A stretch of 64,000 nt of DNA from Pseudolabrys sp. (GCA_029980465.1 JARYIJ010000001.1:806001-870000); one strand, 5' to 3'; positions 47,889 to 64,000 are shown, counted from the stretch's first letter. Numbers and translations: made by a program. The notes: generated by a model not told the origin, from the sequence alone.

Positions 47889-47903
47889 CGGCGTTCCGGC
47901 AAT

Positions 47904-47996
47904 CCGCTCATTTCCGCGCAAGCGGGAATCCAGAACCACAAGTTCCTGCGCAGCGAGATGTCACGCCGGGTCCCCGCTTTCGCGGGGACGAGCGGG
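47904..47996. repeat. REP-like palindromic element, copy 1
   Basis: The element runs from CCGCTC (47904-47909) to GAGCGG (47990-47995). The arms are CCGCGCAAGCGG (left hairpin) and TCCCCGCTTTCGCGGGGA (right hairpin). It is nearly identical in layout to the copy at 50389-50468 and lies between the FAD and the first Mo subunit genes. Confidence 0.85.
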
Positions 47997-48012
47997 ATTT
48001 ACGGAGGGCGCG

Positions 48013-50364
48013 ATGAGCGCAGCCTCCCATTCCCGGGAAACCAAAGGCTCGGGCGTGAAATGGGTCGGTCGCGCCATGCGGCGCGTCGAAGATCCGACTC
48101 TCGTGACCGGACAGGGCCGCTTCACCGCCGATCTTCCCGCCGCGCATCACGTGCGCTTCGTGCGCAGCCCGGTCGCGGCCGGCGTCATCATCGGCATTAC
48201 GCCGCCGCAAGGCGCGATGGTGTTCACCGGCAAGGACGTCGCCGGCATCAAGCCGATCACGCCGATGCTGCACAAGTTCAATTACAAGCCGCTCGGCCAG
48301 CCGATCCTGGCGCAAGGCGCGGCGTATTTCGTCGGCGAGATGATCGCCGCCGCCGTGGCGCCGACGCCGGCCGAGGCCGAGGATATCGCTGAGCAGACCG
48401 AAGTCTCGATCGAGGAGACCACGCCAGTGATCGACGCGCGCGCCGCGCTCGAACCCGGCGCACCGACGGTCCACAAGACGATCCCCGGCAATCTCATCGT
48501 CGAGGGCCGACTCAAGACCGACGGCTTCGACGGCGTGTGGGCTGGCGCCGCGCATCACGTCACGACGGACATCCGTTCGCATCGCCAGAACGCGACGCCG
48601 ATGGAGGCGCGCGCCGGACATGCCGCCTATGATGCCGCGACTGGCCGTGTCACGCTGACCTGCACGACGCAGATGCCGCATCTGACGCGTACCGCCATCG
48701 CCGACCTGATCGGCATGCCGGAGAACGATCTGCGCGTCATCGCACCGGACGTCGGCGGCGGCTTCGGCCAGAAGATGTCGCTCGCCGCCGAATACGTCTT
48801 CCTGGTCTGGCTGGCGCGCAAGCTCAAAAGCTCGGTGTCATGGGTCGAGGACCGGCGCGAGAACCTGATCGCCTCGTTCCACAGCCGCGACCAGTACATC
48901 ACGCTCAAGGGCGCGTTCGACGCCGACGGCAAATTGCTGGCGCTCGATGCCAACGTGCTCGCCAATACCGGCGCCTATTCCTGCTTCCCCAACACCTGCG
49001 CGGTCGAGCCGCTGATGGCGCTCGCGGAAATGCCGGGCCCGTACGACGTCAAGGCCTATGCCTGCGTGGCACGCGGCGCGGTGACCAACACCTGCACCAT
49101 GGCGCCCTATCGCGGCGTGTCGCGGCCGATCATCACCTTCGCGCTCGAGCGGCTGATGGACAAGGCGGCGGCGGCTTGCAGACTCGATCCGGTCGAGATT
49201 CGCCGCCGCAACCTGGTGACGACGTTCCCGTACACTACCGCCGCGGGCCTGGTGCTCGATGAGGGCAGCTACCTCAAGACGCTCGACATGGCGGCCCAGG
49301 CCATCGACCTGCCGGCGTTCCGCGCGCGGCAGGCCGACGCGCGCAAGCGAGGCCGCTATCTTGGCGTCGGCTTCGCGCCGTTCTCCGAGCGCACCGGTTA
49401 CGGCAGCCCGGCCTTCGCGGCGCGCGGCATGGGAATCACGCCGGGCTGGGAAACCGTCATCATCTCGGTCGATCCGGGCGGCTTCGTCGAGGCGAGGATC
49501 GGCTCGTCGCCGCACGGCCAGGGCCTGCGCACCACCCTTGCCCAGATCATCGCCGACGAGATCGGCGTCGCTCCCGACCGCATCAAGATCGTGCACGGCG
49601 ACACCGACCGCGCGCCCTATGGTTGGGGCACCTTTGCCAGCCGCTCGCTGGTGATTTCCGGCGGCGCCAGCCTGATCGCGGCGCAGAAGGTGCGCGCCAA
49701 GCTGCAGAAGATCGCCGGCGACATGCTGGAGGCCGCGCCCGCCGACATCGTGCTGGAGAACGGCAACGCCACCGTCGCCGGCACCGACCGCACGCTCAGC
49801 ATTGCCGAGCTGGCGCGCGAGGCCTACACGCAGACGCATCGCTTCAAGGGCGAAATCGAGCCTGGCCTGACCGAGAGCGGCACTTACGACCCGTCCGGCA
49901 CGTTCTCGAATGCGTGCCACGCTGCCATCGTCGAGGTCGATATCGAGACCGGCAAGACGACGATCGAACAGTACGTGGTCGCGGAAGACGCCGGCGTTCT
50001 CATCAACCCGATGATCGCGGACGGCCAGGTGCACGGCGGCGTCGCCCAAGGCATCGGCAACGCGCTGCTGGAAGAGATCGTCTACGACGAGACCGGCAAC
50101 CCGTTGTCGACCACCCTCGCCGACTACCTGCCGCCGACCTCTCACGAAATTCCACAGATCGAGCTTCATCACGCCGTCACGCCGTCGGTGAATTCCGTCA
50201 CGAAGGCCAAGGGGCTCGGCGAAGGCGGCGGCATCGGCGCGCCGGGCGCGGTGATCAATGCGATCAACGATGCGCTGGCGCCGTTTGGTGTTCAGATCGA
50301 CGAGATGCCAGCAACGCCGCAGCGCGTCCGCGCGGCTTTGCGCGCAGCGGAGACGGCGGCATGA
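48013..50364 (+). CDS. Molybdenum hydroxylase, large Mo-cofactor-binding subunit (first)
   Basis: The 783-residue protein has the aldehyde oxidase/xanthine dehydrogenase a/b hammerhead (about 20-140) and Mo-binding domain. Features are VGGGFGQKMSLAAEY, APYRGVSRP (the position of the AYxCSFR loop in form I CO dehydrogenase, which is not present) and the active-site Glu in KGLGEGGGIGAPGA near the C-terminus. It hydroxylates a heterocycle or aldehyde. Start ATG 48013 follows GGAGGG; the frame to 47737 overlaps the FAD gene. Confidence 0.94.
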   Translation: MSAASHSRETKGSGVKWVGRAMRRVEDPTLVTGQGRFTADLPAAHHVRFVRSPVAAGVIIGITPPQGAMVFTGKDVAGIKPITPMLHKFNYKPLGQPILAQGAAYFVGEMIAAAVAPTPAEAEDIAEQTEVSIEETTPVIDARAALEPGAPTVHKTIPGNLIVEGRLKTDGFDGVWAGAAHHVTTDIRSHRQNATPMEARAGHAAYDAATGRVTLTCTTQMPHLTRTAIADLIGMPENDLRVIAPDVGGGFGQKMSLAAEYVFLVWLARKLKSSVSWVEDRRENLIASFHSRDQYITLKGAFDADGKLLALDANVLANTGAYSCFPNTCAVEPLMALAEMPGPYDVKAYACVARGAVTNTCTMAPYRGVSRPIITFALERLMDKAAAACRLDPVEIRRRNLVTTFPYTTAAGLVLDEGSYLKTLDMAAQAIDLPAFRARQADARKRGRYLGVGFAPFSERTGYGSPAFAARGMGITPGWETVIISVDPGGFVEARIGSSPHGQGLRTTLAQIIADEIGVAPDRIKIVHGDTDRAPYGWGTFASRSLVISGGASLIAAQKVRAKLQKIAGDMLEAAPADIVLENGNATVAGTDRTLSIAELAREAYTQTHRFKGEIEPGLTESGTYDPSGTFSNACHAAIVEVDIETGKTTIEQYVVAEDAGVLINPMIADGQVHGGVAQGIGNALLEEIVYDETGNPLSTTLADYLPPTSHEIPQIELHHAVTPSVNSVTKAKGLGEGGGIGAPGAVINAINDALAPFGVQIDEMPATPQRVRAALRAAETAA

Positions 50365-50388
50365 AAAAATCACCAAGACTTCCGTTTC

Positions 50389-50468
50389 CCGCTCATTCCC
50401 GCGCAAGCGGGAATCCAGAGACGCAGCACGTGCCGCTCCTGGATCCCCGTTTTCGCGGAGACGAGCGG
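50389..50468. repeat. REP-like palindromic element, copy 2
   Basis: The element begins CCGCTC (50389-50394) and ends GAGCGG (50463-50468). The left hairpin CCCGCGCAAGCGGG is perfect apart from the loop; the right one is CCCCGTTTTCGCGG-like. It lies between the first Mo subunit and the Fe-S subunit genes. Confidence 0.85.
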
Positions 50469-50485
50469 TCGGGTGAGTAGCGGCC

Positions 50486-50968
50486 ATGTCAAAAAAACAA
50501 CCTATCACGCTCAACATCAACAACCGTGATCACAAAATCGAAGTCGAGCCGCGCAAGACGCTGGTTGACGCGATCCGCGACGATTGCGGCCAGACCGGCA
50601 CCCATATCGGCTGCGAACACGGTATTTGCGGCGCCTGCACCGTGCTGGTCGACGGCGAGCCGGTGCGCTCCTGCCTGATGTTCGCCGTGCAGGCCGACGG
50701 CAAGACGATCCGCACGGTCGAAGGCCTCGCCAACGGCGACGAGCTGCATCCGATGCAGAAGGCCTTCATGGATCACCACGGCCTGCAATGCGGCTTTTGC
50801 ACGCCGGGCTTCCTGATGCTTGCGGTCGGCGTGCTCGAGCGCGAGCCGGACATCAGCGACGAGGATCTGCTCGACGTGCTGTCGTCGAACCTGTGCCGCT
50901 GCACCGGCTATCAGAACATCATCAAGGCGGTGCGCGCCGCCGCCGCCGAGATGCGTGGTCCGCGGTGA
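50486..50968 (+). CDS. Molybdenum hydroxylase, 2Fe-2S small subunit
   Basis: The 160-residue subunit carries two [2Fe-2S] clusters. The plant-type site uses Cys43, Cys48, Cys51 and Cys63 (CEHGICGAC). The second site uses Cys102, Cys105 (QCGFCTPGF), Cys137 and Cys139 (LCRCTGYQ). It transfers electrons between Mo and FAD. It lies between two large-subunit genes and can serve either. Confidence 0.96.
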   Translation: MSKKQPITLNINNRDHKIEVEPRKTLVDAIRDDCGQTGTHIGCEHGICGACTVLVDGEPVRSCLMFAVQADGKTIRTVEGLANGDELHPMQKAFMDHHGLQCGFCTPGFLMLAVGVLEREPDISDEDLLDVLSSNLCRCTGYQNIIKAVRAAAAEMRGPR

Positions 50969-50978
50969 GCGCCGCACG

Positions 50979-53255
50979 ATGAGCAAGGATGCGGGCGGCA
51001 CGGTGATCGGCCGCTCGGTGCCGCGGCTCGAGGACAGGCCGCTGCTGACCGGGCAAGGCCGCTTCGCCGCCAACATCTCGTTTCCCGGACAACTGCACAT
51101 GCGGGTCGTGCGCTCCGCGGTCGCGCACGGCAAACTGACAGGCCTCGACGCCAGCGCGGCATTGAACGTGCCGGGCGTCCATGCGGTCTGGACTGCAGCC
51201 GATGTCGCGCACATTCCGCCGATCGGATTCCGCCTCACCGGCCTCACCGAGCTCGAGCCATACCGGCAATATGTGCTGGCGCGCGACCGCGTGCGCTATG
51301 TCGGCGAGCCGGTCGCCGCGGTGTTCGCATCCGATCCCTACATCGCCGAGGACGCCGCCGATCTTGTCGACGTACGAACCGAAGACCTGCCGAGCATCAT
51401 CGACGCGGCCGAGCAACCGGGCTTCTACGACGATGAACGTCGGACCGAACCGGCGATCATCCGCAAGGGCTATGGCGACGTCGACGCCGCCTTCGCCCAG
51501 GCGCAACATATTGTGGAGCTTGAGCTTTCCATCGGGCGGCACAGCGGCGTGCCGATCGAGACGCGCGGCGTCATCGCGACATACGACGAGGAGCGCGATG
51601 TTCTGGCGATGTACGGCGCCGCCAAGGTGCCGCACTGGAATCGCGACAGCATCGCCATGATGCTGGGGCGAAAACTCGAGACCGTTCAATTATTTGAGGG
51701 CCATGTCGGCGGCGGCTTCGGCATCCGCGGCGAGCTCTATCCGGAAGACCTGCTGGCCTGCGCCGCCGCGCTCAAATTCCGCAAGCCAGTCAAGTGGATA
51801 GAGGACCGGCGCGAGCACCTGATCGCCGCCAATCACTCGCGCCAGCAGCGCCATAAGATCCGGGCCGCTGTCGACGACCACGGCCGGATTCTCGGCCTCG
51901 ACGACACGTTCTTCCACGACAACGGCGCCTACATGCGCACCCATGCGGCGACAGTGCCAGATCTTGCGGCGGCGATGCTGCCGGGCCCCTACATCGTGCC
52001 GGCGTATCGGGCGCACGGGCATATCCGGCTCACCAACAAGACGCCGTGCGGCACCTACCGGGCGCCCGGCCGCTACGAAAGCACGTTCGTGCGCGAGCGC
52101 CTGATGGACGCGATTGCGCAACGAATTCAAGTGGATCGCCTGGAAATTCGGCGCCGCAATCTGATCGCGAAAGAGCAGATGCCGTACGATGCGCGCACCG
52201 CGACGCTCGGCACCGACATCATCTACGACTCCGGCGACTACGCCGGGCTACTTCGGCGCGTCGATCGCCACTACGGCCTTGCGCGGGCCATTGCCCGGGC
52301 CGAACAACGCCGATCAACGGGCGTGCTCGCGGGTGTCGGCCTGGCGATGTTCGTCGAGAAGAGCGGGCTCGGTCCGTCCGACCTCGTGCGCATCACCCTC
52401 CATGCCGACGGCACCACCGAGGTCGTCACCGGCTCGGCCTCGGTTGGCCAGGGCATGGAGACGGCGATGGCGCAGATCTGCGCCGGCGCGCTCGGGATCG
52501 ACTACGCCACCGTCCGCGTCATCCACGGTCAGACCGACCGCATCGAGCGTGGCGGTGGCGCCTATGCGTCGCGCGTCACGGTCATGACCGGCGAAGCCAC
52601 CCATCGCGCCGCATGCGACCTGCGGGCCAAGGCGCTCGCCGCCGCGGCGCCGCTGATGCAGACGACGCCGGACCGGCTTACCATCGCCGGCGGCGTCATC
52701 ACCCGCGTCAACGGCGGCGCCTCGATGCCGCTCGCCGAGCTCGCGCGCATCGTTTCGCTCACCGGCGAAGGGATCTTCGAGTACAAGCACATGGTCTATC
52801 CCTACGGCGTCCATATCGCCGAGGTGCTGGTCGATGCCGAGAGCGGCGGCGTCACCGTCGAGCGCTATTTCGTCGGCTACGACATCGGCCGCGCCGTCAA
52901 CCCGATGCTGATCGAAGGCCAGATCGCCGGCGGCGTCGCCCAGGGCATCGGCGGGGCGCTCTATGAAGACTTCCGCTATGCCGAGAACGGCGAGCCGCTG
53001 TCGGTCAGCTTCGCCGACTACCTGATGCCGACCGCCCACGAGATTCCGCGGATCGAGCTGCTGCTGACCGAAGACGCGCCCTCGCCGCTCAACTCGCTCG
53101 GCCTCAAGGGCGCGGGCGAAGGCGGCGCCAACGCCGCCGGCGCGGCGATCGCATCCGCCGTCGACGACGCTATCGGCCTGCCGGGCGCGATCACCGAGCT
53201 CCCGATCACGCCGCAGCGGCTGAAGGCGCTGCTGCGCGGCCTGCCTCCGCACTGA
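50979..53255 (+). CDS. Molybdenum hydroxylase, large Mo-cofactor-binding subunit (second)
   Basis: The 758-residue protein is clearly homologous to the first large subunit: RLEDRPLLTGQGRF start, GHVGGGFGIRGELYPED, CGTYRAPGRYES loop and the active-site Glu in KGAGEGGANAAGAA. It differs widely in sequence, so substrate scope may differ. Start ATG 50979 is 10 bases after the Fe-S gene stop; the open frame begins at 50820. The loop lacks the CO-dehydrogenase Cys. Confidence 0.94.
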   Translation: MSKDAGGTVIGRSVPRLEDRPLLTGQGRFAANISFPGQLHMRVVRSAVAHGKLTGLDASAALNVPGVHAVWTAADVAHIPPIGFRLTGLTELEPYRQYVLARDRVRYVGEPVAAVFASDPYIAEDAADLVDVRTEDLPSIIDAAEQPGFYDDERRTEPAIIRKGYGDVDAAFAQAQHIVELELSIGRHSGVPIETRGVIATYDEERDVLAMYGAAKVPHWNRDSIAMMLGRKLETVQLFEGHVGGGFGIRGELYPEDLLACAAALKFRKPVKWIEDRREHLIAANHSRQQRHKIRAAVDDHGRILGLDDTFFHDNGAYMRTHAATVPDLAAAMLPGPYIVPAYRAHGHIRLTNKTPCGTYRAPGRYESTFVRERLMDAIAQRIQVDRLEIRRRNLIAKEQMPYDARTATLGTDIIYDSGDYAGLLRRVDRHYGLARAIARAEQRRSTGVLAGVGLAMFVEKSGLGPSDLVRITLHADGTTEVVTGSASVGQGMETAMAQICAGALGIDYATVRVIHGQTDRIERGGGAYASRVTVMTGEATHRAACDLRAKALAAAAPLMQTTPDRLTIAGGVITRVNGGASMPLAELARIVSLTGEGIFEYKHMVYPYGVHIAEVLVDAESGGVTVERYFVGYDIGRAVNPMLIEGQIAGGVAQGIGGALYEDFRYAENGEPLSVSFADYLMPTAHEIPRIELLLTEDAPSPLNSLGLKGAGEGGANAAGAAIASAVDDAIGLPGAITELPITPQRLKALLRGLPPH

Positions 53256-53271: not shown

Positions 53272-54180
53272 CTATCGCAGATAGTTGGCGAGGTTGAGGC
53301 TCTGGACCTTCGAGATCGCCGCATACGAGGCGGTCAATTGTGCCTGGTATGTCGACAACTGCGCGGTGACCGCGGCGACGTCGACGCCTGTGAGGTTTCC
53401 CGCCACGGTCGTCATGTCCGACTTGAACTGCGTCTGCAGCGCGCTGGCGCTCTCGATCGCCGAGGATGCCTGGCCGACCTGAGCCTGCAGGCTACCAACG
53501 CTCTTCACCGCGTTCTCGGCCAAGGCCATCGCCTCGTTGACCGTCGCGCTGTTGAGCGAGCCGCTGCTGGCGATCAAATTGAGCGCGCGCAACCCCTGCT
53601 CGAAGGCCGAATTGTCGGCGGTTACGCCGTAGCTCACCACCTGGGTCGCCGAGACCCGGACTGATGCCGTTGCGCTGTCCCCCTGATAATAGCTCGTATC
53701 GGGAGACGACGGCGAGTAGGCGGGCGGATACACACTGCTCGAAAGATCGACCGGCGCGGTATCGACGCGCGAGCCGCTGAACAGGTAGCCGCCGGCATAT
53801 TGGGTATTCAGCAGCGAACCCAGCTCCTGCATCATCTGCTTCGCCGAGGTCGTGATGCTTGAGGTGTCCGTCATCGACGAATTATAGGACGCCAGCGTGC
53901 TGCGAAACTGCGCCAGGATTGAACTGACGGAGCCCATCGTCGAGTACATCACCTGGATTTTGCTGTCCGCCGCCGTCGCGTTGTCGATGTAGCTCTGGGC
54001 CCGCGTCGTGGCGACCTGCAGATCGAGAACCTGGCGGGTCGTCGAGCCGAGCCCGCCGAACTCTGTCGATATCTGGCCGGACGCTTCCTGGAGCTGATCG
54101 TTCGCCATGACGCTCTGGGCGCGCAGGGCCGCATCAATCATCTGCTCGCTGATGGCAAAACTGGCAACACGCGGAATCAT
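53272..54180 (-). CDS. flgL: Flagellar hook-associated protein FlgL (HAP3)
   Basis: The 302-residue protein has flagellin-like N- and C-terminal helices (MIPRVASFAISEQM, QVATTRAQSYIDNATAADSK and the C-terminal heptads) and the FlgL-typical GGYLFSGSRVDTAPVD in the middle. It links the hook-FlgK junction to the filament. It follows flgK by 11 bases, the last gene of the flagellar transcript in this window. Confidence 0.9.
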   Translation of the reverse strand: MIPRVASFAISEQMIDAALRAQSVMANDQLQEASGQISTEFGGLGSTTRQVLDLQVATTRAQSYIDNATAADSKIQVMYSTMGSVSSILAQFRSTLASYNSSMTDTSSITTSAKQMMQELGSLLNTQYAGGYLFSGSRVDTAPVDLSSSVYPPAYSPSSPDTSYYQGDSATASVRVSATQVVSYGVTADNSAFEQGLRALNLIASSGSLNSATVNEAMALAENAVKSVGSLQAQVGQASSAIESASALQTQFKSDMTTVAGNLTGVDVAAVTAQLSTYQAQLTASYAAISKVQSLNLANYLR

Positions 54181-54191
54181 CGTCTCTCGCC

Positions 54192-55958
54192 TTATGCCGT
54201 CGACATCACGGTCATCAGCAGCGAGAACATCTGCTTGATGGTGGCGAGAACTTGGGCGCTGGCCTCATACTGGTTCTGCAGCGTGCTGATGCGCGACGTC
54301 TCCTGGTCGATGTTGACTCCCGTCTCGGACGACAGCGCGGAAGAATAAAATGACTGCGTGGTCTGCTTGTTGGTGTAATCCGACGATGCCGACGATGCCT
54401 TGCTCGCGACATCGGACACGATATTCGCGGCGTAGTCGGCAAAGGATGCCGAAACAGCCGCAAGCCCGCCGACCGCGGAGAACGAGGTCGATCCGGTCAG
54501 CGCATTATAGAGACCGTTCGTAACGGCCGATGAGCCCGGCGGCAGAACATTCGCCCCGGCCGTCAGAGTCGAGGATGAGTCGAGCGACGACGCCGGCAAA
54601 AGCGAGGCGTTGTTGAGGAGACTGGAGCGTACGGCGATATCGGCTGCGCTGCTTCCCGTAACGATGTCGTTGAGGCCCAGCCAGGCCGAGAGACCCTCCC
54701 CGCCTGGGCTTACGGCGCTCGTCATTTCGTTGATGGCCACGCCATATGACGCGCTCGAGCTTGTGATGGTCAAATTGCCGTTGCCGTTGATCGAGGCCGA
54801 CAGGCCGGACACACCGTTGATCGCAGTCACCAGATCGCCAACCGTGGCGTAGCTCGACAGATTGAAGTCCTGATAGGATGACAGCTTGCCGGAGCTGTCG
54901 ACGAGCGCGATCCTGAACGTCCCTATCCCGGACAGGGACGTGGACGGCGTGACGGTCGCCGTTCCGGTCAGGGTGGCTGGCGCCGGCGACGGCGTGCCCT
55001 GGTTCGCAACGCCGTTCACGGCCGTTTCGAGTTGCGTCGCAAGCTGATCGAGCTGCGCCTGCGCGTCCGGCAGCGTATTATCGCGCAGGTTGACCAGCGC
55101 GCCGATATTGCCCGACTTGATCTGCGAGGTCACGTCGATGCCGTTGACGGTAATTCCGCTAAAGCCGCCTGAGCCGCCGGGAATGTAGGTCGTCGCGGAC
55201 GTCACGGTCGACGCCGGCGTATAGCTCAAACGATGAACGGTGGTATCGACCAGCGCTTGGCCGGACGGGGTGTAGACCTGAAGGCTGCCGCTTGACGTCG
55301 TAAAGTACTGGACATTCATCTGCGAGGCGACCGACTGCAGCGCGGTGTTGCGCTGATCCTCGAGGTCGCCGGTCGGCTGGCCTGCGGCCTTAGCCTGCTG
55401 GATCTGGATATTGAGGCTGCCGATCAGATTGAGCTGCTTGTTGACGGCGTCGACATCCGCGTTGATGTCCTTGTCGGCGTTCGACCGCTGGTTCTGAATA
55501 CCGGCCGAGATGGAGCGCAATTGGGTCAGCGTCGAATCCAGCGCGCTAACGACGCTCGCCTTGGCGGTCGCGTCGCTTGGATTCGACGACAGCGAGGACA
55601 ATGCGGATTCCAGGGACGCCAGCGTATTGGCGATCGACGTTCCGGTGCCGTTGGAGCCTGTCGTGGCGCCATAGAGCGCCTGCAGATTGTTCAGATAACT
55701 GTTGGTCGTGTTCGACGCGTCGAGGGCGGAAACCGAATCGATGAGTGACTTCAGCAACGCCTTGTCGATCGTGCTGCCGATCCCTGAGATGGCCGTGCCG
55801 GCGCCGGCGCCGGCGCTGACGACCGAAACCTGCTGGGCGGTCTTGGCGGTGTAGCCGGCCGTATCCGCGTTCGAAATGTTGGCGGAAGCGACCTCAAGCT
55901 GCACCTGAGTCGCCATCATTCCGCTCAGCGCGATATATGCGGCGCTGTTGATCGACAC
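54192..55958 (-). CDS. flgK: Flagellar hook-associated protein FlgK (HAP1)
   Basis: The 588-residue protein has the rod/hook N-terminal motif SAAYIALSGMMATQVQLEVA followed by NISNADTAGYT and the FlgK-specific C-terminus (GVNIDQETSRISTLQNQYEA). The central part is Ser/Thr/Gly-rich. It forms the first hook-filament junction ring. It is 12 bases downstream of the FlgN-like gene, its likely chaperone. Confidence 0.95.
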   Translation of the reverse strand: MSINSAAYIALSGMMATQVQLEVASANISNADTAGYTAKTAQQVSVVSAGAGAGTAISGIGSTIDKALLKSLIDSVSALDASNTTNSYLNNLQALYGATTGSNGTGTSIANTLASLESALSSLSSNPSDATAKASVVSALDSTLTQLRSISAGIQNQRSNADKDINADVDAVNKQLNLIGSLNIQIQQAKAAGQPTGDLEDQRNTALQSVASQMNVQYFTTSSGSLQVYTPSGQALVDTTVHRLSYTPASTVTSATTYIPGGSGGFSGITVNGIDVTSQIKSGNIGALVNLRDNTLPDAQAQLDQLATQLETAVNGVANQGTPSPAPATLTGTATVTPSTSLSGIGTFRIALVDSSGKLSSYQDFNLSSYATVGDLVTAINGVSGLSASINGNGNLTITSSSASYGVAINEMTSAVSPGGEGLSAWLGLNDIVTGSSAADIAVRSSLLNNASLLPASSLDSSSTLTAGANVLPPGSSAVTNGLYNALTGSTSFSAVGGLAAVSASFADYAANIVSDVASKASSASSDYTNKQTTQSFYSSALSSETGVNIDQETSRISTLQNQYEASAQVLATIKQMFSLLMTVMSTA

Positions 55959-55970
55959 GGGAAGGACCGG

Positions 55971-56417
55971 CTAGGCGCGAACGTTGGCGACGTAGGACGA
56001 AATCGAGGGAGCCTGGGCATGACCCTTGGCGGAATAGGACGCCTCGGCCGCCATCTGCTCGCGGATCGCCATCATGACCGCGTTGATCCGCCGCTGACTT
56101 GCCTCGATCGCGGCACGCAGACTGGTGATGTTTTCCGTCATGATCGCCTGCAGCGTATTCAAACGCTCGATCAGCATGGCATGCAGCGCCTTGTCCGACG
56201 TGAAGATCGCCGAAGGCTCGGTGGCGACGGCGGCCGCCCAGGGCTGGAACAGCTCGGCGAGCTCGGCCTTGCGCTTGAAGGGAATGAGCTGGGAGGCCGG
56301 CCACCCTTTCCCGAGCAGCGTGTTCTCTTCCCGCGTGATCGCAATGAGCTCGTCGATCAGCGCAATGAGATCCTCGATGCGCCCCTGGTTGCCTTGCGTA
56401 TTGGCGGCCGGATTCAT
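55971..56417 (-). CDS. FlgN-like flagellar export chaperone
   Basis: The 148-residue all-helical protein has IEDLIALIDELIAITREENT at the N-terminus and long helices after it, as in FlgN chaperones that hold FlgK and FlgL before export. Its position directly upstream of flgK and flgL supports this. Sequence similarity is by pattern only. It overlaps the previous small gene by 4 bases (ATGA). Confidence 0.75.
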   Translation of the reverse strand: MNPAANTQGNQGRIEDLIALIDELIAITREENTLLGKGWPASQLIPFKRKAELAELFQPWAAAVATEPSAIFTSDKALHAMLIERLNTLQAIMTENITSLRAAIEASQRRINAVMMAIREQMAAEASYSAKGHAQAPSISSYVANVRA

Positions 56418-56692
56418 GGCATTCTCCTATTCCGTTCACTCGGGTTGGCCCGCAGGCTTGTCAGCCGGTACGCAGCAGAAGCCTTGGTACGCAAAATCGA
56501 AGCCTGGAGCTCCTTGTCGAGCTCGATGGTTTTCCGTTTCAGCGCCGCGATCGCAGCAGCCAGGTCGGCGGCAAGGAGCCGGGCTCCCCGATCCGCCTTG
56601 CCCGCCGTGACCGCGGCTTGCGCGCGGGCGGCAAGACGGCGCAGCTGCCACAACGAGCGGTCCTCGCCCGGATCACCGCGTGTTGCCTTCAT
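56414..56692 (-). CDS. Small helical flagellar-locus protein, unknown
   Basis: The 92-residue basic protein is mostly helical (LRRLAARAQAAVTAGKADRG, LAADLAAAIAALKRKTIELD). It might be another export-related factor, for example FliJ- or FliT-like, but I cannot assign it. Its ATG shares a base with the flgE stop (TGATG) and its stop overlaps the FlgN-like gene, so it is firmly in the operon. Confidence 0.7.
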   Translation of the reverse strand: MKATRGDPGEDRSLWQLRRLAARAQAAVTAGKADRGARLLAADLAAAIAALKRKTIELDKELQASILRTKASAAYRLTSLRANPSERNRRMP

Positions 56693-57951
56693 CAGCGACT
56701 GACGGCGCTCATGAGCGTGTCGTACATCTTGTTCACGGCGGTTATGACCTGAGCAGACGCCGAATAGGCCTGTTGCGCCGTCAACATCGTGCTGAATTCC
56801 TGGTTGGTATTGGTCGTGCTCGATTCCAGCTCGCTGCCGTAGACGGTGCCGGCACCGCCGGTGCCCGACGCCTGGATAATGGCGTTTCCGGATCGGGCGG
56901 TGGACTCGTAAAGCCCGTTGCTCTGCGCCTGGAGTTCGTCTGGCGATGAGAAGGTCGCGACCGGAACCTTGTAGATCGCGATGGTCTGGCCATTCGAATA
57001 GGTCGCGTTGACCAACCCGTTTGCGCCGACGGAAACCGAGCTCAGCTTACCGAACGCGAGACCGTCCGATGTAATGCTCGACACGCTGATCGCGGGCGTC
57101 GTCTGACCGGACGAAAACTGCGTCAGGCCATCCGTGCTGCTGGCCGTGCCGAGGTCGAGCGCGATGGTGCTGTTGGTCGCGCCATCGGTCCATCCCGAGA
57201 TGGAAAACGTCGGCGGATTCGGCATCGTGGTCGCCAGCGAGCCGTCGCTGTTGAAGGTGATCGCAACGGTGCCGGAGCTTGTACCGGTCGGCGTCGCGGA
57301 GTTGGCCGACGATGTCGGATTGGCAAAGGCCGCGCTCCAGGCATTCGAGCCGGTTTTCGTCCACGTCACTTCAACCGTGTTGGACGCGCCCAGGCTGTCG
57401 TACACCGGAATCGAGGTCGTGAACGTCGCGCCGACAGCGGCGTCCGCCGGAAGGTTGGCCGAGATCGTCGCTTTCGTGGTCGCCGATCCACTGACCGTCG
57501 CGACATTGGTATTGACCGCCTCGAGGTTGCCGCCGTTGACAACGTTGCCCTGGGCGTCGGTCCGCCAGCCCATCAGATAGCTGCCTTTGTCGGTCAGATA
57601 ACCGCTGCTATCGACCGTGAAGGCGCCGTTGCGCGTATACGACACCTGGCCACCGTTGAGCGCGCTTTCGACGATGAAAAAACCCTGCCCCTGGATAGCC
57701 ATGTCGGTTGAGTTCGTGGTCGCCGCGAGCAGGCCCTGCTGCGTGATGTTGGCGCGACCATATACGGTGACGCCGCCGGAGGAGTACTGCGTGCTCCCCA
57801 TGGCGTTCGTGACAAGGTCGTCGAACATTCCCATCGTGGTTTTGTAACCGGTGGTCGAGGAGTTCGCGAGGTTATCGCTGACCATGGCCAGAGCCTGGCT
57901 CTGTGCGCCGAGAGCGGAAATGGCAGACGATAATGCGCCCGAAAGACTCAT
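56692..57951 (-). CDS. flgE: Flagellar hook protein FlgE
   Basis: The 419-residue protein starts with MSLSGALSSAISALGAQSQA and DNLANSSTTGYK, the hook/rod N-terminal motif, and has the FlgE/F/G-type MAIQGQGFFIV and the C-terminal motif NTNQEFSTMLTAQQAYSASA. Thr/Ser/Ala-rich domains lie between. It is 19 bases downstream of flgD. Confidence 0.95.
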   Translation of the reverse strand: MSLSGALSSAISALGAQSQALAMVSDNLANSSTTGYKTTMGMFDDLVTNAMGSTQYSSGGVTVYGRANITQQGLLAATTNSTDMAIQGQGFFIVESALNGGQVSYTRNGAFTVDSSGYLTDKGSYLMGWRTDAQGNVVNGGNLEAVNTNVATVSGSATTKATISANLPADAAVGATFTTSIPVYDSLGASNTVEVTWTKTGSNAWSAAFANPTSSANSATPTGTSSGTVAITFNSDGSLATTMPNPPTFSISGWTDGATNSTIALDLGTASSTDGLTQFSSGQTTPAISVSSITSDGLAFGKLSSVSVGANGLVNATYSNGQTIAIYKVPVATFSSPDELQAQSNGLYESTARSGNAIIQASGTGGAGTVYGSELESSTTNTNQEFSTMLTAQQAYSASAQVITAVNKMYDTLMSAVSR

Positions 57952-57970: not shown

Positions 57971-58627
57971 TTACGAGTTTACGCTCACGAGGTCGCTGAG
58001 GTTGACGAGCTGTCCGTCAACGTCGAGTTGGGCCGTTCCGTTGGTGGTCGAGATGTCGTCGACCTTGCCGTTGAAGGTCGTGTAATTAAGAACGGAATTA
58101 CCGGAGGTGTCCGTCGCGGTGACTTTGATCGTGTATTTTCCGCCATCGGCGAGTTGCGTCCCGCTCGACGTCTTTCCATTCCACGTGAAGGAATTCATGC
58201 CGGCGTTGGTCGGGCCGGTTCCCGACCACACGATGTTGCCCGAGGAGTCGGAGATCGTGATCTGCGCCGACGACGCGGTCGAGCTGAGATCATAGCCGAA
58301 GGTCGCCTGGCCGTTCGTCAGCGTGGCGGTGCTGCCTTTGGCCTCGACCGTGTGCCCGATGTAGTTCAGCGAATTGAGCGTCAACAAGCTGCCGAACGAC
58401 GACAGCAATGAGTTGAAGTTGCTGTTGAGCGTCTGCTGCTCGTCGAAGTTCGCGTACTCGCTCATCTGGTTGACGAAATCGGTCGTGCTCGTCGGCTGGA
58501 GCGGATCCTGGTTCTTCAACTCGCTGACCAGCAGCGTCAGAAAGTCGGCCGAGCTGATGCCCGCCGACGCGGCGGCCGAACTGACCGCCGACGACATATT
58601 TGTGGAGGTTGCGGAAGTGACGTTCAT
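57971..58627 (-). CDS. flgD: Flagellar hook capping protein FlgD
   Basis: The 218-residue protein has the FlgD N-terminal motif ADFLTLLVSELKNQDPLQPT followed by STTDFVNQMSEYANFDE, and the C-terminal Ig-like FlgD domain with SFTWNGKTSSGTQLADGGKY. It scaffolds hook assembly. A 219-base gap separates it from the upstream sensor-like gene, so it may have its own promoter. Confidence 0.95.
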   Translation of the reverse strand: MNVTSATSTNMSSAVSSAAASAGISSADFLTLLVSELKNQDPLQPTSTTDFVNQMSEYANFDEQQTLNSNFNSLLSSFGSLLTLNSLNYIGHTVEAKGSTATLTNGQATFGYDLSSTASSAQITISDSSGNIVWSGTGPTNAGMNSFTWNGKTSSGTQLADGGKYTIKVTATDTSGNSVLNYTTFNGKVDDISTTNGTAQLDVDGQLVNLSDLVSVNS

Positions 58628-58732
58628 GCCAGACTCGCCCGTTGAGGCGCCTGCAGACGCCCCTTATCCCGGCTCGAATTGTGCGAAGGTGATCAATCGT
58701 GCTCGTAGTCTTTAACGACGAGGCACGGAAAA

Positions 58733-58772
58733 TCAGGCCAAGAATCTTGGGCGAAGAATCTCAGGCCAAGAA
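58733..58772. repeat. Direct repeat in the flgD upstream region
   Basis: TCAGGCCAAGAA occurs at 58733-58744 and again at 58761-58772 in the gap upstream of flgD. The 28-base phase is near three helical turns, so the copies would face the same side of the DNA. It could be an activator site. Confidence 0.45.
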
Positions 58773-58846: not shown

Positions 58847-59308
58847 TTAGCGAGGCAACGGGCCGAAAATCGGGGAAATTCGCATTTTGGCCAACTTGCG
58901 CCTGTCGTCGAGCGAGAGACGCGAAATGCCGTCGGCAAAGATTCGATCGGCCTCGGCCTCCATTTTGGCGCGATCGGCCCGTTCGCCTTTCTTTTCCTCC
59001 AAAAAGGCGATTTTTGAAAAGCGGTCGGCGTTCAGGATCGTGACCAGCTGATCCCTGGAGGCCTTGAACGTGCTGCGGTTGTTCTCGAATACGGACCGCA
59101 TGTCGTCGAACGTCTGGGTCATCATTTGCGACCCTTGATCGCTGAGCGTCCCCAAAATGCTCTCGACGAACCGGCCCGAATCCGGCGGCTCGCTCCACGA
59201 CAGGCGGGAATGGCCTGCGATCCAGCCGGCCAGGAAGAGATTGGCCCCGATGGAGGCGACCAACAGCCAAGAGGTCAGGTGACGCCCTGCCGGCGAGCGC
59301 AGATCCAT
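58847..59308 (-). CDS. Periplasmic heavy-metal-sensor-like (CnrX/Spy-type) protein
   Basis: The 153-residue protein has one N-terminal membrane anchor (WLLVASIGANLFLAGWIAG) and a periplasmic helical domain (FDDMRSVFENNRSTFKASRD, KMEAEADRIFADGISRLS). Topology and pattern match the Heavy-metal resistance/CnrX-type family often found next to ECF sigma genes. No Met/His cluster for metal binding is evident. It follows the anti-sigma-like gene by 27 bases, so they act together. Confidence 0.7.
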   Translation of the reverse strand: MDLRSPAGRHLTSWLLVASIGANLFLAGWIAGHSRLSWSEPPDSGRFVESILGTLSDQGSQMMTQTFDDMRSVFENNRSTFKASRDQLVTILNADRFSKIAFLEEKKGERADRAKMEAEADRIFADGISRLSLDDRRKLAKMRISPIFGPLPR

Positions 59309-59335
59309 CGCATCCCCGTCTAAACCGCGAAAAAG

Positions 59336-59788
59336 CTAATCTTTCGCGTACCTTACATCGAGGACCGTGGCCATAAAATCATGAAAATCGACTTCGTTCA
59401 GGTCCAGCGCCTGCATGTTGTGTAAAACGCCGCAAGCGAGCCCGACCACAAAGCAAATGGACAAAAACGCGAGCCGCACCACGCGGCTCGAGGGCACCAT
59501 CCAGGCCGGGAGAACACCCGACGCAGGCCCATCCGGCGTGCCGGACCTCGTCCCGGACTGCCCGTTTTCGATCGTCCTGGCGAAAATGGCGTCGCGCAGC
59601 CCCTGGGACGCAGGAGCGACCGGTGTCGTCATCAACTGGCGAAGGGCGACGGCCTCCTGCAGAAGCCGCCTTGCAACCTCGGATTCAGCCAGAAGCTGAC
59701 GCGCGGCCGCCTGTTGAGCCGGCGGCCATCGCGACAAATCCTCGCCGAGGCGATCCAACAGGTCTTCGAATTCGACAATCGTCATCAC
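59336..59788 (-). CDS. Single-pass anti-sigma-like membrane protein
   Basis: The 150-residue protein has a cytoplasmic N-terminus with FEDLLDRLGEDLSRWPPAQQ and AARQLLAESEVARRLLQEAV, a layout common to small proteins encoded with alphaproteobacterial ECF sigma genes, then one membrane helix (VVRLAFLSICFVVGLACGVL) and a short periplasmic tail. No zinc HxxxCxxC motif is seen. An anti-sigma role is inferred from context: the sensor-like gene follows and an ECF gene lies 3.2 kb upstream. Confidence 0.6.
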   Translation of the reverse strand: MMTIVEFEDLLDRLGEDLSRWPPAQQAAARQLLAESEVARRLLQEAVALRQLMTTPVAPASQGLRDAIFARTIENGQSGTRSGTPDGPASGVLPAWMVPSSRVVRLAFLSICFVVGLACGVLHNMQALDLNEVDFHDFMATVLDVRYAKD

Positions 59789-59898
59789 TCGCCCCGCAAC
59801 CGGCGCGAACGACCTTCCCGGCGTCAGTTGAAGCCGGACCTAATCAGACGGGAATTTTCGATGCAAGCCCGTGGCGGCGGTCAGCGGGCGCGGCAGGC

Positions 59899-60306
59899 TT
59901 AACGGCCGCGCATGCCCTTTTGCCCGGCTGTCGCCCTAACAAAGGACCAGGCGTCGCGAAGCTGAACCAGGCTGGCGATGATCCGGCCGTACCGCGCCGG
60001 GGCGTCGGGACGCCCGAACGAGCGGAGCGCGGCGATGATCAATGCGTTGTAGGTGCGAAACAGCCGGTCCGGCAGATCGCCGCCTTTGTCGAAATTCAGG
60101 CATTGGCTCAAGCCGCGCAAAATCTGCGTCGCCTTCATCAGATGATTGTGGCTTTCCTCGAAGCGCTTCGCTTCGCTGGCGGCGACCAGCTTTTCAATCG
60201 ATGCAATCGCACCGTCGAGCAGCATCACGATGCCCGTCAGGGGAGATACCGCCATCGAAACGCTTCGGTAGGTTTGAGCAGCCTGGTACGCAACGGCATC
60301 CGACAT
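59899..60306 (-). CDS. fliS: Flagellar export chaperone FliS
   Basis: The 135-residue helical protein has the FliS pattern (AYQAAQTYRSVSMAVSPLTG, IVMLLDGAIASIEK, NHLMKATQILRGL, LFRTYNALIIAALR). It binds the C-terminus of flagellin to prevent polymerisation before export. It follows fliD by 23 bases as usual. Confidence 0.92.
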   Translation of the reverse strand: MSDAVAYQAAQTYRSVSMAVSPLTGIVMLLDGAIASIEKLVAASEAKRFEESHNHLMKATQILRGLSQCLNFDKGGDLPDRLFRTYNALIIAALRSFGRPDAPARYGRIIASLVQLRDAWSFVRATAGQKGMRGR

Positions 60307-60329
60307 GATTTACTTCTCTGGTAACGCGT

Positions 60330-62021
60330 TCAGTGTGTGCTCTTCTGATTCAGAAGCGCCTGAAGATAGTTCAGCGTCGTCGAAGCAGACGCAATTTCAG
60401 CCTGATATTTTGCATAGAGCGTCTGCAATTGTATCTGATAGGCCGATGCCGCCGACTGGATGTCGGAGACTTGCTGCGACAACGACGTGTCCTGTGTTTG
60501 CAGCCCTGAAATCAAGGTTTGAAGCGAGCCGTTCGTCGTATTGGACACAGACGTAGCCAGACTCTTGATCATCGATGCAATGCCGTTCGTGCCGGTCACG
60601 CTGATCGACTGCGATGTCGTGCCGGTATACTCGAAGGCAATACCGGAATATGCCGTTCCGGCATTCCCGATGATGGTGTCACCGACGATGGAAAACATCG
60701 AGCTGTCACCGCCGACCGACGCCGAAGCGAGGTTGCCGGACCCGTCAACAGTCACATCGAGAGTGAAGGACGACGGCGGCGAATCGCCGGCGGAGATCGT
60801 GAGCAGATTGCTGGATGATGCGGTGAGCTGGTTGGCCAGCAGCGACTCGACGCCCGAAAGCTTACTGGTCAGCGTCGATTGCAAGGTTGTCGTATCGAGT
60901 TGGAGGTCGTTGGAATTGTTGAATGACAGGCCGAGATCACTCATCGACAAGCCGCCGACGATCGAGCTTATGGCGAACTGGATTTGATCGCTCAGGCCGT
61001 TCATCGTGCTGTCGCCAAACAGGACGGCGCTCGACGAGGCCGTGCCGTCGGAATTGGTGGCTTGCTGCGACACCACATAATCCCGCAGCGCATTGTAGGC
61101 CGTGACGAAATTCTGCAGATCCGTCGTCATCGTGCTGGTGTCGGGACTCAGCGTGATATTGAGCGACGTTCCCGGCGGCGTGGCCTGGTATAAATGAAAC
61201 GTCGTGTTGGTGAGGACGTCGCTGATATCGTTGGTATTGCGAGTCATCTGGATGCCGTCGAGCGTGAACTTCGCCGGCTGCGAGGTCTGCAGGACGTCGG
61301 TGAAGTTTCCGCTTCCGTCCGTGGCGCCGATCTTGTTGAGCACGTTGTCGCCGGAAACCGATGAGGTCACGATATTGGCATTGTCGTTCTGCGCAGTCAG
61401 GACCAGTTCGTACTGCCCGGCGCCAACCTGCAGGACCGACGCCTGAACGTTGGTCGTGCTTTCCTGCGCATTGATCGCGGCAGCAACGTCCTGCAACGAC
61501 ATCCCGCTTGTGACAGAAATGTTTGCCGTCGCGCCACCCGCGAGCCCGAGCGAAAACGTGCCAATGTAGCCCAGAGCGGACGTGTTGCTGGTGACGGTCG
61601 CGCTAGCGGCCTTTTGCGCCTGCGCAACCTGCTGAACTGTCAGCGTGTAGCTGCCGCTCGGAGCTCCGTTATTGACCGTCATGCCGAGAACGGCGGCAGG
61701 ACTGACGTCACCCGTCGCCGTGATGGCCGCCGTCGCGGCGCTGAATGCGCTCGACGACAAAGAGCTCGTATTGGAGGTCGAAAACGGCCCTGCGGCGTTC
61801 GCCAGATTGCTCAGCAGGCTCTGCAGCTTCTGGTAAGCGGCGATCTTGGCCTGGTTGTTCGTGATCGATGTCTGGATCGTCGTCGCCGCGGCCAGCTTGG
61901 CGTCGACTTGCGACGTAATCAGCGCATTCCAGTCGATACTCGACAGATTGGTCGAGACGTTCGAGGTCAAGGCGGACGTCGGCGATGTCGAGCTCGAAGA
62001 CGTAGCGGAGCTGACCGTCAT
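60330..62021 (-). CDS. fliD: Flagellar filament capping protein FliD (HAP2)
   Basis: The 563-residue protein has the FliD N-terminal domain (SIDWNALITSQVDAKLAAAT, helical start) and the C-terminal domain (SLSQQVSDIQSAASAYQIQL, with the coiled-coil end), with a Ser/Thr/Asn-rich middle. It caps the growing filament. It lies between flagellin and fliS. Confidence 0.95.
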   Translation of the reverse strand: MTVSSATSSSSTSPTSALTSNVSTNLSSIDWNALITSQVDAKLAAATTIQTSITNNQAKIAAYQKLQSLLSNLANAAGPFSTSNTSSLSSSAFSAATAAITATGDVSPAAVLGMTVNNGAPSGSYTLTVQQVAQAQKAASATVTSNTSALGYIGTFSLGLAGGATANISVTSGMSLQDVAAAINAQESTTNVQASVLQVGAGQYELVLTAQNDNANIVTSSVSGDNVLNKIGATDGSGNFTDVLQTSQPAKFTLDGIQMTRNTNDISDVLTNTTFHLYQATPPGTSLNITLSPDTSTMTTDLQNFVTAYNALRDYVVSQQATNSDGTASSSAVLFGDSTMNGLSDQIQFAISSIVGGLSMSDLGLSFNNSNDLQLDTTTLQSTLTSKLSGVESLLANQLTASSSNLLTISAGDSPPSSFTLDVTVDGSGNLASASVGGDSSMFSIVGDTIIGNAGTAYSGIAFEYTGTTSQSISVTGTNGIASMIKSLATSVSNTTNGSLQTLISGLQTQDTSLSQQVSDIQSAASAYQIQLQTLYAKYQAEIASASTTLNYLQALLNQKSTH

Positions 62022-62044
62022 CTATTTCCGTCTCTAAAAGCTAT

Positions 62045-62070
62045 GGAGAGCCGGCTTTCGCCGGCTCTCC
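62045..62070 (-). terminator. Terminator after the flagellin gene
   Basis: GGAGAGCCGGC (62045-62055) pairs perfectly with GCCGGCTCTCC (62060-62070), loop of 4. On the minus strand it comes 9 bases after the flagellin stop and is followed by ATAGCTTTTAG. It would give a high-level monocistronic flagellin transcript. Confidence 0.85.
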
Positions 62071-62078
62071 GATTACGC

Positions 62079-62903
62079 TTAGCCGAGCAGCTTCAGGAGA
62101 TACTGCGGGATCTGGTTGGCTGCCGTTTCCGCGGCGACCGCGGCTTGTGTCTTCACTTCCGAAGACGACAGAGTCGCCTCTTCGGCGGCAACGTCGACGT
62201 CCGTGATCACCGACTTGGCCGACTGCAAGTTCTGCGTCTGCGTCGAGATTTCGTTGGCGCTGAAGTTGAACCGCGATTCCTGCGCGCCGATAGAGGCGCG
62301 AGCCGATGAAACCGTACCGATCGCGGTATCGAGAGCGGTGAGTGCGGAGTTCGCGCCCGTCTGGGTGCTGACATTGAGCGTACTGACACCGAGCGAACTC
62401 GCCGTCAGTGTCGACAGGGTCACCGTCACGGTATCGGTCGCCTTGGCGCCGACGAGCACCGAAACGCCCGACGAGAAAGCGCTGCTGCCGTCGAGCAGGC
62501 TCACGCCGCCGTACGACGTGCCGCCCGCGATCGTGCCGATTTCACTGATGAGCTGCGAAAATTCCGACTGGATGTAGCCGCGGCTGCTGTCGGTGACGGT
62601 GCCGGACGAAGCTTCCGACGCCAGCGTCTTCATGCGGGCCAGAATGTCGCTGATGTTCGAGGCGCCGCCGTCGGCGGTCTGCAGGATCGAGGTCGCCTGA
62701 GACGCATTGGTCGCAGCCTGCTGCAGGGTCGAAATGTCCGACGAGATGCTGGTCGAGATCGCGAGGCCGGCCGCATCATCGGAGGCTTTGGTGATGCGCG
62801 AGCCGCTCGACAGCTTCGACAGCGCGCTGGTCTCCTGCGCCGAGTTCATATTCAGGTAATACACCGCGGCATTGGCTGCCGTGTTCGTGGCAATCACGGG
62901 CAT
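62079..62903 (-). CDS. fliC: Flagellin
   Basis: The 274-residue flagellin has conserved N-terminal (LNMNSAQETSALSKLSSGSR, then ASDDAAGLAISTSI) and C-terminal (ARASIGAQESRFNFSANEIS, QIPQYLLKLLG) D0/D1 helices with a short D2 region, as usual in alphaproteobacteria. AAGGGAG precedes ATG 62903. It has its own terminator. Confidence 0.96.
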   Translation of the reverse strand: MPVIATNTAANAAVYYLNMNSAQETSALSKLSSGSRITKASDDAAGLAISTSISSDISTLQQAATNASQATSILQTADGGASNISDILARMKTLASEASSGTVTDSSRGYIQSEFSQLISEIGTIAGGTSYGGVSLLDGSSAFSSGVSVLVGAKATDTVTVTLSTLTASSLGVSTLNVSTQTGANSALTALDTAIGTVSSARASIGAQESRFNFSANEISTQTQNLQSAKSVITDVDVAAEEATLSSSEVKTQAAVAAETAANQIPQYLLKLLG

Positions 62904-63034
62904 TGGATACTCCCTTTCCGCGGCGGCCAGCCGCGCCCCAATTAGACATGACGGAAGCTATCCCCCGTCCAACAGCTTGAACGGTCGGCATGCACGAAAC
63001 CGGGCGCGCTAGTTCGGCGGACACGCGCTTATGG

Positions 63035-63712
63035 TTACGCGTCGGTAAACGTCTGCCTGATATCGCCCTCGTTATGCCGCAGGGCTTTCTTGAGCTGCTG
63101 GCGGCCCCGCTTGAGCAGAGACTCGACCGCCATCACCGTCGTTCCCATGATGTCGGCGATGTCCGCGTTCGACATGTCCTCGTGATACGAGAGGATTACG
63201 GCGATCCGCTGCTGCTCCGGAAGGGAATTCATGGCTTCGTCGAGCATCCCCGCAACTTCGCTCTGCTGCAGCGTGCTCATCGCGTCCGGCGTCAAATCGG
63301 CCGGCTCCGGCACCGCCTCGACGTCTTCGGTGCGCGGCCGCCGGCGCAGGTCGATGCAACGGTTCGTCACAACGCGATAAAGCCAGGTCGAGAACTTGGC
63401 CCGGCCTTGCTGATACTCGGCGCGACGGCTCCAGACCTTGAGAAACGTGTCCTGGACGACGTCTTCGGCATCGTCCCGACTCCCCAGAATGCGAAGGGCG
63501 AGGGCAAACATCCGATCGATGTGGCGTTCGACGAGAATGCGGAACGCGTTCTGATCGCCGAGAGCAAGGCGATCGAGAAGTTCGGCCTCCTCGTCCCGCG
63601 CCACGTCAACGCTGGGGGCGGCCGCGGGCGTGCTTATCCGGTCAGCCGGCCGTTCAGGCGCCGCATCCGCCGGTAACGCGATCGGCGCGAATGCATTAAG
63701 CGCTAAAGCCAT
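63035..63712 (-). CDS. ECF-type RNA polymerase sigma factor
   Basis: The 225-residue protein has an N-terminal extension of about 40 residues, sigma region 2 (about 50-120; DDAEDVVQDTFLKVWSRR, FSTWLYRVVTNRCIDLRRR) and region 4 (about 158-212; SLPEQQRIAVILSYHEDMSN then ADIMGTTVMAVESLLKRGRQ). GGGAG lies before ATG 63712. It heads a locus of flagellar genes, with anti-sigma-like and sensor-like genes 3-4 kb downstream. Target promoters are unknown. Confidence 0.93.
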   Translation of the reverse strand: MALALNAFAPIALPADAAPERPADRISTPAAAPSVDVARDEEAELLDRLALGDQNAFRILVERHIDRMFALALRILGSRDDAEDVVQDTFLKVWSRRAEYQQGRAKFSTWLYRVVTNRCIDLRRRPRTEDVEAVPEPADLTPDAMSTLQQSEVAGMLDEAMNSLPEQQRIAVILSYHEDMSNADIADIMGTTVMAVESLLKRGRQQLKKALRHNEGDIRQTFTDA

Positions 63713-64000
63713 GCTGATCTCCCGCCCAGACTGGCCCCACCGCCAGCTTTCAACACTTCAACGGGCAAGATCGGAATTCCGGGCGCACTTTTTTCTTTAT
63801 TTTTCAGATACTTAGAAGGAAAGTTTTGCCTGTCCCCGGGCATTTTTTGCCCCTAGGCGATAGGCGCATAGTCAAGCCGCACGCGCTGAGCAGACGGCAT
63901 CCGACAACCAACAAGGGGGTGAGGACAAACGCGGTGAACGCAAAACCGCAACAAAACCCGACGTTTAAGCTTACGCCGCAGCTCATACGCCGAAACCGGT
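63713..64000. other. Upstream region of the sigma factor gene, 288 bases to window end
   Basis: It contains the dyad CGGAATTCCG (63772-63781) and an AT-rich run with TTTTTTCTTTATTTTTC (63789-63805). These presumably form the control region of the sigma gene. No coding frame here looks real. Confidence 0.5.

Follow-up and report, generated by a model that had tools for sequence, protein, structure and literature searches.

The closest described relative of the locus analyzed here is the RpoE6/Asf6 system, studied in Azospirillum brasilense (Gupta et al., December 2025; PMC12826043). There, the extracytoplasmic function (ECF) sigma factor RpoE6 activates rpoE8 and the promoter of fliC2, mapped as CGCCAG-N16-CGTGAG, and Asf6 binds RpoE6 (PMC12826043). 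FliC2 is described as a minor flagellin of the polar flagellum in the wild type, and no swimming defect can be detected on plates when rpoE6 or fliC2 is deleted (PMC12826043). Deletion of asf6 results in the overproduction of FliC2, the loss of the main flagellin band of ~100 kDa and thinner filaments, the filament of the mutant being probably composed almost only of FliC2 (PMC12826043). Moreover, the gene order sigW-fliC-fliD-fliS-hp-hp-flgD-... (hp, hypothetical protein) has been published for Rhodopseudomonas, Bradyrhizobium and Magnetospirillum (PMC12826043). We analyzed a stretch of 64,000 nucleotides from Pseudolabrys sp. (GCA_029980465.1, JARYIJ010000001.1:806001-870000; bases 806001-870000 of contig C1, hereafter the window), part of a genome (G000) of 3.77 Mb that is 99.4% complete. 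The window carries a cluster with that same gene order, and we infer that this cluster is likely to be a switch of the RpoE6/Asf6 type by which an alternative flagellar hook and filament are made.

CnrY and CnrX are an anti-sigma factor with a single transmembrane (TM) helix and its anchored periplasmic partner. The window shares with the CnrY-CnrX-CnrH system of Cupriavidus a one-TM anti-sigma factor, an anchored periplasmic partner predicted to be of the same fold class, and an ECF sigma factor. It differs in that its sensor lacks conserved metal ligands, its anti-sigma factor (Asf) is related to Asf6, its neighbors are flagellar, and filament genes stand between its regulatory genes. As in FliA/FlgM, a sigma and an anti-sigma factor would control late flagellar genes. 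However, the window sigma factor has regions 2 and 4 only, as in the ECF families, and not regions 2, 3 and 4 as in sigma28; the TM helix of Asf sets it apart from soluble anti-sigma factors that are exported, and the target would be an extra hook-filament set. By analogy with FlgM, the short soluble relatives of Asf might be exported through the flagellum. Finally, the RpoE8 tricistron of Azospirillum (a sigma factor, an hp and a "periplasmic heavy metal sensor") codes for a homologous anti-sigma factor and sensor, but is contiguous and not flagellar.

On the minus strand of the window, the order is ECF sigma factor, flagellin, fliD, fliS, one-TM anti-sigma-like asf, a CpxP/Spy/CnrX-like sensor, flgD, flgE, a small gene, a flgN-like gene, flgK and flgL (Table 1). 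The genes, order, coordinates and strand given by the original prediction were all confirmed, and the cluster extends beyond flgE to flgL, ending at 53272. The sigma factor is 52.9% identical over 174 residues to A. brasilense RpoE6 (WP_035682069). Asf, a protein of 150 residues whose hydropathy profile shows a single strong TM segment (Kyte-Doolittle 2.37, starting at residue 103) and which carries the N-terminal signature FEDLxDRxGEDxSxWP, has no Pfam match and finds A. brasilense Asf6 in phmmer searches (E 2.2e-12; 1.6e-12 in the reverse direction). A model of Asf shows four N-terminal helices, the first three with high confidence. When compared with the class I anti-sigma domain (ASDI), its top match was RslA (Z 4.7, root-mean-square deviation (rmsd) 5.7, 59 residues aligned); structure searches with Asf gave no strong match, and a scan of genome contigs with Asf alone gave no matches. 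The original prediction named another anti-sigma gene contiguous with the sigma gene beyond the window as a ground for its own rejection. It survives this check, as no such gene is found among the adjoining genes, which lie on the opposite strand and code for 816-residue, 443-residue and formyltransferase-domain proteins (L003:12196-16817, plus strand, just outside the window). From their sequences, we regard the assignment of the window genes as a predicted sigma/anti-sigma pair as strong and, by analogy with A. brasilense, Asf would bind and inhibit the sigma factor in this organism. The locus thus has the elements of an RpoE6/Asf6 system: the orthologous sigma factor, a homologous asf gene, linkage to flagellin, fliD, fliS, flgD, flgE, flgK and flgL, and the same promoter class. 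In contrast to the window Asf with its TM helix and sensor, Azospirillum Asf6 is short and has neither a TM helix nor a sensor gene; in addition, the sigma gene is first in the window and near-last in Azospirillum.

The original prediction saw in the interleaving of regulatory and filament genes a departure from a normally contiguous set. The interleaving is real but not peculiar to this genome, as the published gene orders cited above indicate. The order sigma-flagellin-fliD-fliS-asf-(sensor)-flgD-flgE is also present in three other genomes (G004, G008 and G011), and an anti-sigma-like homologue adjoins fliD in all five of the 60 relatives in which fliD was found at >40% identity. When the sigma alignment was used to scan named genomes, 80 loci were found, mainly in Bradyrhizobium, Rhodopseudomonas, Tardiphaga, Rhodoplanes, Pleomorphomonas, Prosthecomicrobium and Devosia, and 79 of these did not end before asf. 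The sigma gene, flagellin, fliD/fliS and asf are kept together in 79/79, with or without a sensor gene, and flgD, flgE, flgN, flgK and flgL come next where the contig allows. The interleaving is therefore a stable arrangement and not an accident of one genome, and a chance insertion of filament genes was rejected. Two record names look wrong: the locus of "Frankia sp. RB7" (L113) is Bradyrhizobium-like and that of "Rhodovulum sp. PH10" (L160) is Rhodoplanes-like.

Upstream regions were searched for the motif [CG]GCC[CTA]G-N15..17-CGT[TG], with dinucleotide shuffles as the control. It was found upstream of the sigma gene in 77/94 loci, of flagellin in 85/94 and of flgD in 71/89, against about 1.5 in the shuffles (1.6 for flgD); the counts are not independent, as many loci are closely related, although distant loci also carry the motif. 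Before fliD, fliS, asf, the sensor gene, flgE, flgN, flgK and flgL, it occurred at background level. The motif is of the same class as the mapped RpoE6 promoter of fliC2, suggesting that the sigma factor uses all three promoters. That the regulatory set controls the filament genes, as originally predicted, is very probable. Genome-wide, the strict motif has 8 exact matches in G000 (2 in the reversed control), among them the sigma and flagellin sites. Tandem GGCA-N17-GGCA boxes precede the sigma gene in 71/94 upstream regions, as opposed to 1-2 of about 90 for the other genes, and are separated from the -35 element by 66 nucleotides in 63 of 67 loci. These boxes resemble those before the main flgE gene of the genome, which has a sigma54-type promoter; no sigma54 sites were found upstream of the sigma gene. 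As to whether the boxes are those of FlbD, the literature gave no usable consensus for comparison.

FliF, FlhA and FlgD are present in one, one and two copies, respectively, in G000. The other copy of FlgD maps at C1:2803495, near FliF and FlhA. The main FlgE has 665 residues (C1:324712-326706) and that of the cluster 419; a FlgK of 622 and a flagellin of 501 residues also belong to the main set elsewhere in the genome, and no FliD was found for this main set. In 19 of the 20 cluster-bearing genomes there was one more FlgD than FliF (counted over the cut-off), and in the other there were two more. Conversely, FlgD is never present in more than one copy among 55 relatives that lack the cluster, even though the majority of them are flagellated; a search with the window FliD as the query found FliD in only one of these relatives. 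The surplus of one FlgD over the number of bases thus marks the cluster, which has no basal-body genes, as a second hook and FliD-capped filament set without a base. That it is an extra set beside a main one was missed by the original prediction. Because the genome has a single basal body and export gate, the set is most likely carried by a shared base, replacing the main set or mixed with it; that it would probably be mounted on the main base finds its best support in the A. brasilense asf6 mutant, in which the composition of the filament changes. No open-access paper was found in which the cluster is presented as a surplus set of hook and filament genes, most subscription journals being outside our coverage. 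While this type of system is known already, the role of the window cluster is probably wider than published; the three-promoter pattern, the surplus hook-filament counts and the fullest regulatory form found in the window are new here.

It could also be that the sigma factor only adds a little FliC2-like flagellin to the main filament, the extra flgD, flgE, flgK and flgL genes being little used. The minor status of FliC2 in wild-type A. brasilense and the lack of a detectable plate swimming defect in the fliC2 and rpoE6 deletion mutants (PMC12826043) are in line with this explanation. However, the hook and junction genes stay with flagellin in nearly all loci, flgD has a sigma-type promoter of its own in most of them, and the filament of the asf6 mutant is probably almost only FliC2. 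We consider this explanation unlikely, if still the most serious competitor of the hook-filament switch.

The product of the gene between asf and flgD is predicted to be a membrane-anchored periplasmic protein. An AlphaFold2 model (mean predicted local distance difference test score 77.5) consists of an N-terminal helix followed by a helical domain. When compared with the PDB using Foldseek, the best matches to the model included CpxP, Spy, ZraP, NccX and CnrX, with E-values that are weak but matches that are consistent, those to CpxP and CnrX spanning the whole domain. The alignment with CnrX extended over 105 residues (Z 8.6, rmsd 3.1), although a middling Z comes easily to helical bundles. 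We assign the modeled protein to the CnrX fold class with moderate confidence. In the alignment of the sensor family, no His, Cys or Met is invariant apart from Met1. Metal sensing was rejected, as the family lacks conserved His/Met-type ligands; because of this and of the fold matches, we call the protein a CpxP/Spy/CnrX-like envelope sensor and not a metal sensor.

The 79 loci fall into three forms with respect to Asf and the sensor. Six have a TM Asf and a sensor; in 15, the tail of Asf is TM or strongly hydrophobic and the gap before flgD is too small for a sensor gene (as judged for contigs that include flgD); and in 58, Asf has neither kind of tail and is mostly of about 90 residues. The window thus represents the fullest regulatory form, and the sensor is missing from most relatives that keep the sigma and asf genes. 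Among 35 flagellar loci picked for a tree, the sensor was present in 13/18 with a TM Asf and in 0/17 with a soluble Asf; this association has a Fisher p of 7e-6 on related rows, but the independent pairs, 3:0, are not significant. A sensor together with a soluble Asf was never seen among the flagellar loci compared. That the regulatory genes are normally contiguous, as first supposed, agrees with non-flagellar paralogues in which the sigma, TM Asf and sensor genes adjoin (L010, L011, L012, L014, L017, L085 and L087), and with flagellar loci of other Alphaproteobacteria (L063-L066) in which the triple stands at the end of a flagellin-fliD-fliS operon. Simple patterns revealed no RpoE6-type promoters before the non-flagellar triples and the RpoE8-type gene (A. 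brasilense strain, L085). In a sigma tree, the flagellar-locus sigma factors fall on one side of one branch, with weak support (59/61). The simplest reading is that the contiguous triple came first, the sensor and the TM helix having been lost repeatedly since, although the tree, being unrooted, cannot prove direction.

These homologous triples, together with the fold of the sensor and the CnrY/CnrX-like pairing of a one-TM Asf with an anchored periplasmic partner, would also suit a CnrYXH-like response to envelope or metal stress in which metal is the signal and the filament genes are mere targets. The metal-responsive part of the original prediction is nevertheless not supported: apart from Met1, the sensor lacks any His, Cys or Met that is conserved, it is absent from most relatives with sigma and asf, and the cluster has no metal-resistance gene. 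We hold such a response to be highly improbable. Slightly less probable still is that the cluster is the leftover of a second flagellum after loss of its basal-body genes, as their absence and the patchy presence within the genus (4/36 genomes, including G000) might suggest, since open frames, order and promoters are kept across several families at 45-65% identity, which argues for function.

In the switch that we consider likely, the ECF sigma factor would activate its own gene, the flagellin-fliD-fliS-asf-sensor promoter and the flgD-flgE-...-flgK-flgL promoter, and the one-TM Asf would hold it at the membrane. Since asf is under a predicted sigma promoter, Asf would also give negative feedback. 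The CpxP/Spy-like periplasmic protein most likely reads the envelope or flagellar state and sets the release of the sigma factor by Asf, acting as in CnrX-CnrY-CnrH but not via the metal site of CnrX. Active sigma factor would then lead to the second, FliD-capped hook and filament. More tentatively, one base could serve two complete hook-filament programs, with the envelope sensor picking one through the membrane anti-sigma factor, a proposal that we rate as somewhat short of likely. The main program would comprise the sigma54-type promoter, a large FlgE and flagellin and no FliD found, and the alternative one the ECF sigma factor, a small FlgE and flagellin, and FliD/FliS. If so, the arrangement would be common across Alphaproteobacteria and would have escaped notice, since annotations tally flagellar systems by name and not by basal body. 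What was taken for the regulator of a "minor flagellin" would then likely switch one motor between two types of hook and filament, in genera of soil and plant-associated bacteria that include Bradyrhizobium, Rhodopseudomonas and Azospirillum. Moreover, the ordering of the regulators, from membrane Asf with sensor (the window) to membrane Asf alone and soluble Asf alone, suggests where the RpoE6 signal enters and names strains in which to search for it. Several points weigh against the switch on a shared base. Gene counts cannot establish one base for both sets, and Bradyrhizobium sp. BTAi1 (G446) has three FlgD with a single FliF and FlhA. The lack of a detectable swimming defect of the A. brasilense rpoE6 mutant on plates and the minor status of FliC2 fit mixing as well as replacement. 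The Asf model resembles a known anti-sigma domain weakly, the structural matches of the sensor model are weak by E-value, and few independent changes underlie the TM/sensor association.

Table 1. Features of the cluster, in window coordinates.
Feature	Coordinates	Strand	Basis or remark
ECF sigma factor, RpoE6-type	63035..63712	-	Pfam Sigma70_r2 + r4_2; NF009190 (PRK12538) above cut-off
Flagellin, small (274 residues, D0-D1 only), FliC2-like	62079..62903	-	PF00669 + PF00700 span nearly whole protein
fliD, filament cap	60330..62021	-	PF02465, PF07195
fliS, flagellin export chaperone	59899..60306	-	PF02561
asf, Asf6-homologous anti-sigma factor, C-terminal TM helix and short predicted periplasmic tail	59336..59788	-	phmmer to Asf6
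Predicted membrane-anchored periplasmic CpxP/Spy/CnrX-like sensor	58847..59308	-	PF13801 (Metal_resist) E 9e-6, 26.3 bits, below 29.2 cut-off
flgD, hook cap, surplus copy	57971..58627	-	PF03963, PF13860
flgE, hook protein	56692..57951	-	NF004242 above cut-off
Small protein, 92 residues	56414..56692	-	No family match; position conserved
flgN-like chaperone	55971..56417	-	PF05130 E 0.009, weak; position
flgK, hook-filament junction	54192..55958	-	Position; syntenic homologues 43-54% identity; A. lipoferum homologue annotated flgK
flgL, hook-filament junction	53272..54180	-	Position; syntenic homologues 41-52% identity
Predicted RpoE6-type promoter of sigma gene	63757..63785	-	CGCCCG-N16-CGTTGAA
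Predicted RpoE6-type promoter of flagellin-fliD-fliS-asf-sensor	62977..63006	-	CGCCCG-N17-CGTTCAA
Predicted RpoE6-type promoter of flgD-flgL	58711..58739	-	GGCCTG-N16-CGTTAAA
Tandem GGCA-N17-GGCA boxes, putative activator/repressor site for sigma gene	63818..63853	-	GGGGCAAAAAATGCCC ggggac AGGCAAAACTTTCC

A small hypothetical gene occupies in A. lipoferum the position equivalent to that of the 92-residue gene, whose product, judged by position, may be an export chaperone. The divergent 816- and 443-residue proteins beside the sigma gene have no Pfam match; a gene similar to that for the 443-residue protein also flanks the sigma gene in G011 (L028:13999-15411). Other strict-motif matches in G000 lie upstream of the 443-residue gene (62 nucleotides before it), of a glycosyltransferase-like gene and of the main flgE. 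The second of these exact motifs, at C1:1662666-1662694 (L175), is 40 nucleotides before the glycosyltransferase-like gene, which would fit as a candidate flagellin-glycosylation target. At the main flgE, the motif is found about 190-300 nucleotides upstream in G000 and G011, and in a looser form in G008 (L177, L179), on the far side of the box pair and the sigma54-type promoter as seen from the gene. In G000 it maps at C1:326895-326923 (L086:18896-18924, minus strand). Cross-talk between the two hook sets is possible. Directly beside flgL, at 47034-53255 of the window, are two genes for large xanthine dehydrogenase/CO dehydrogenase-like subunits and genes for FAD and iron-sulfur subunits, as judged by sequence.

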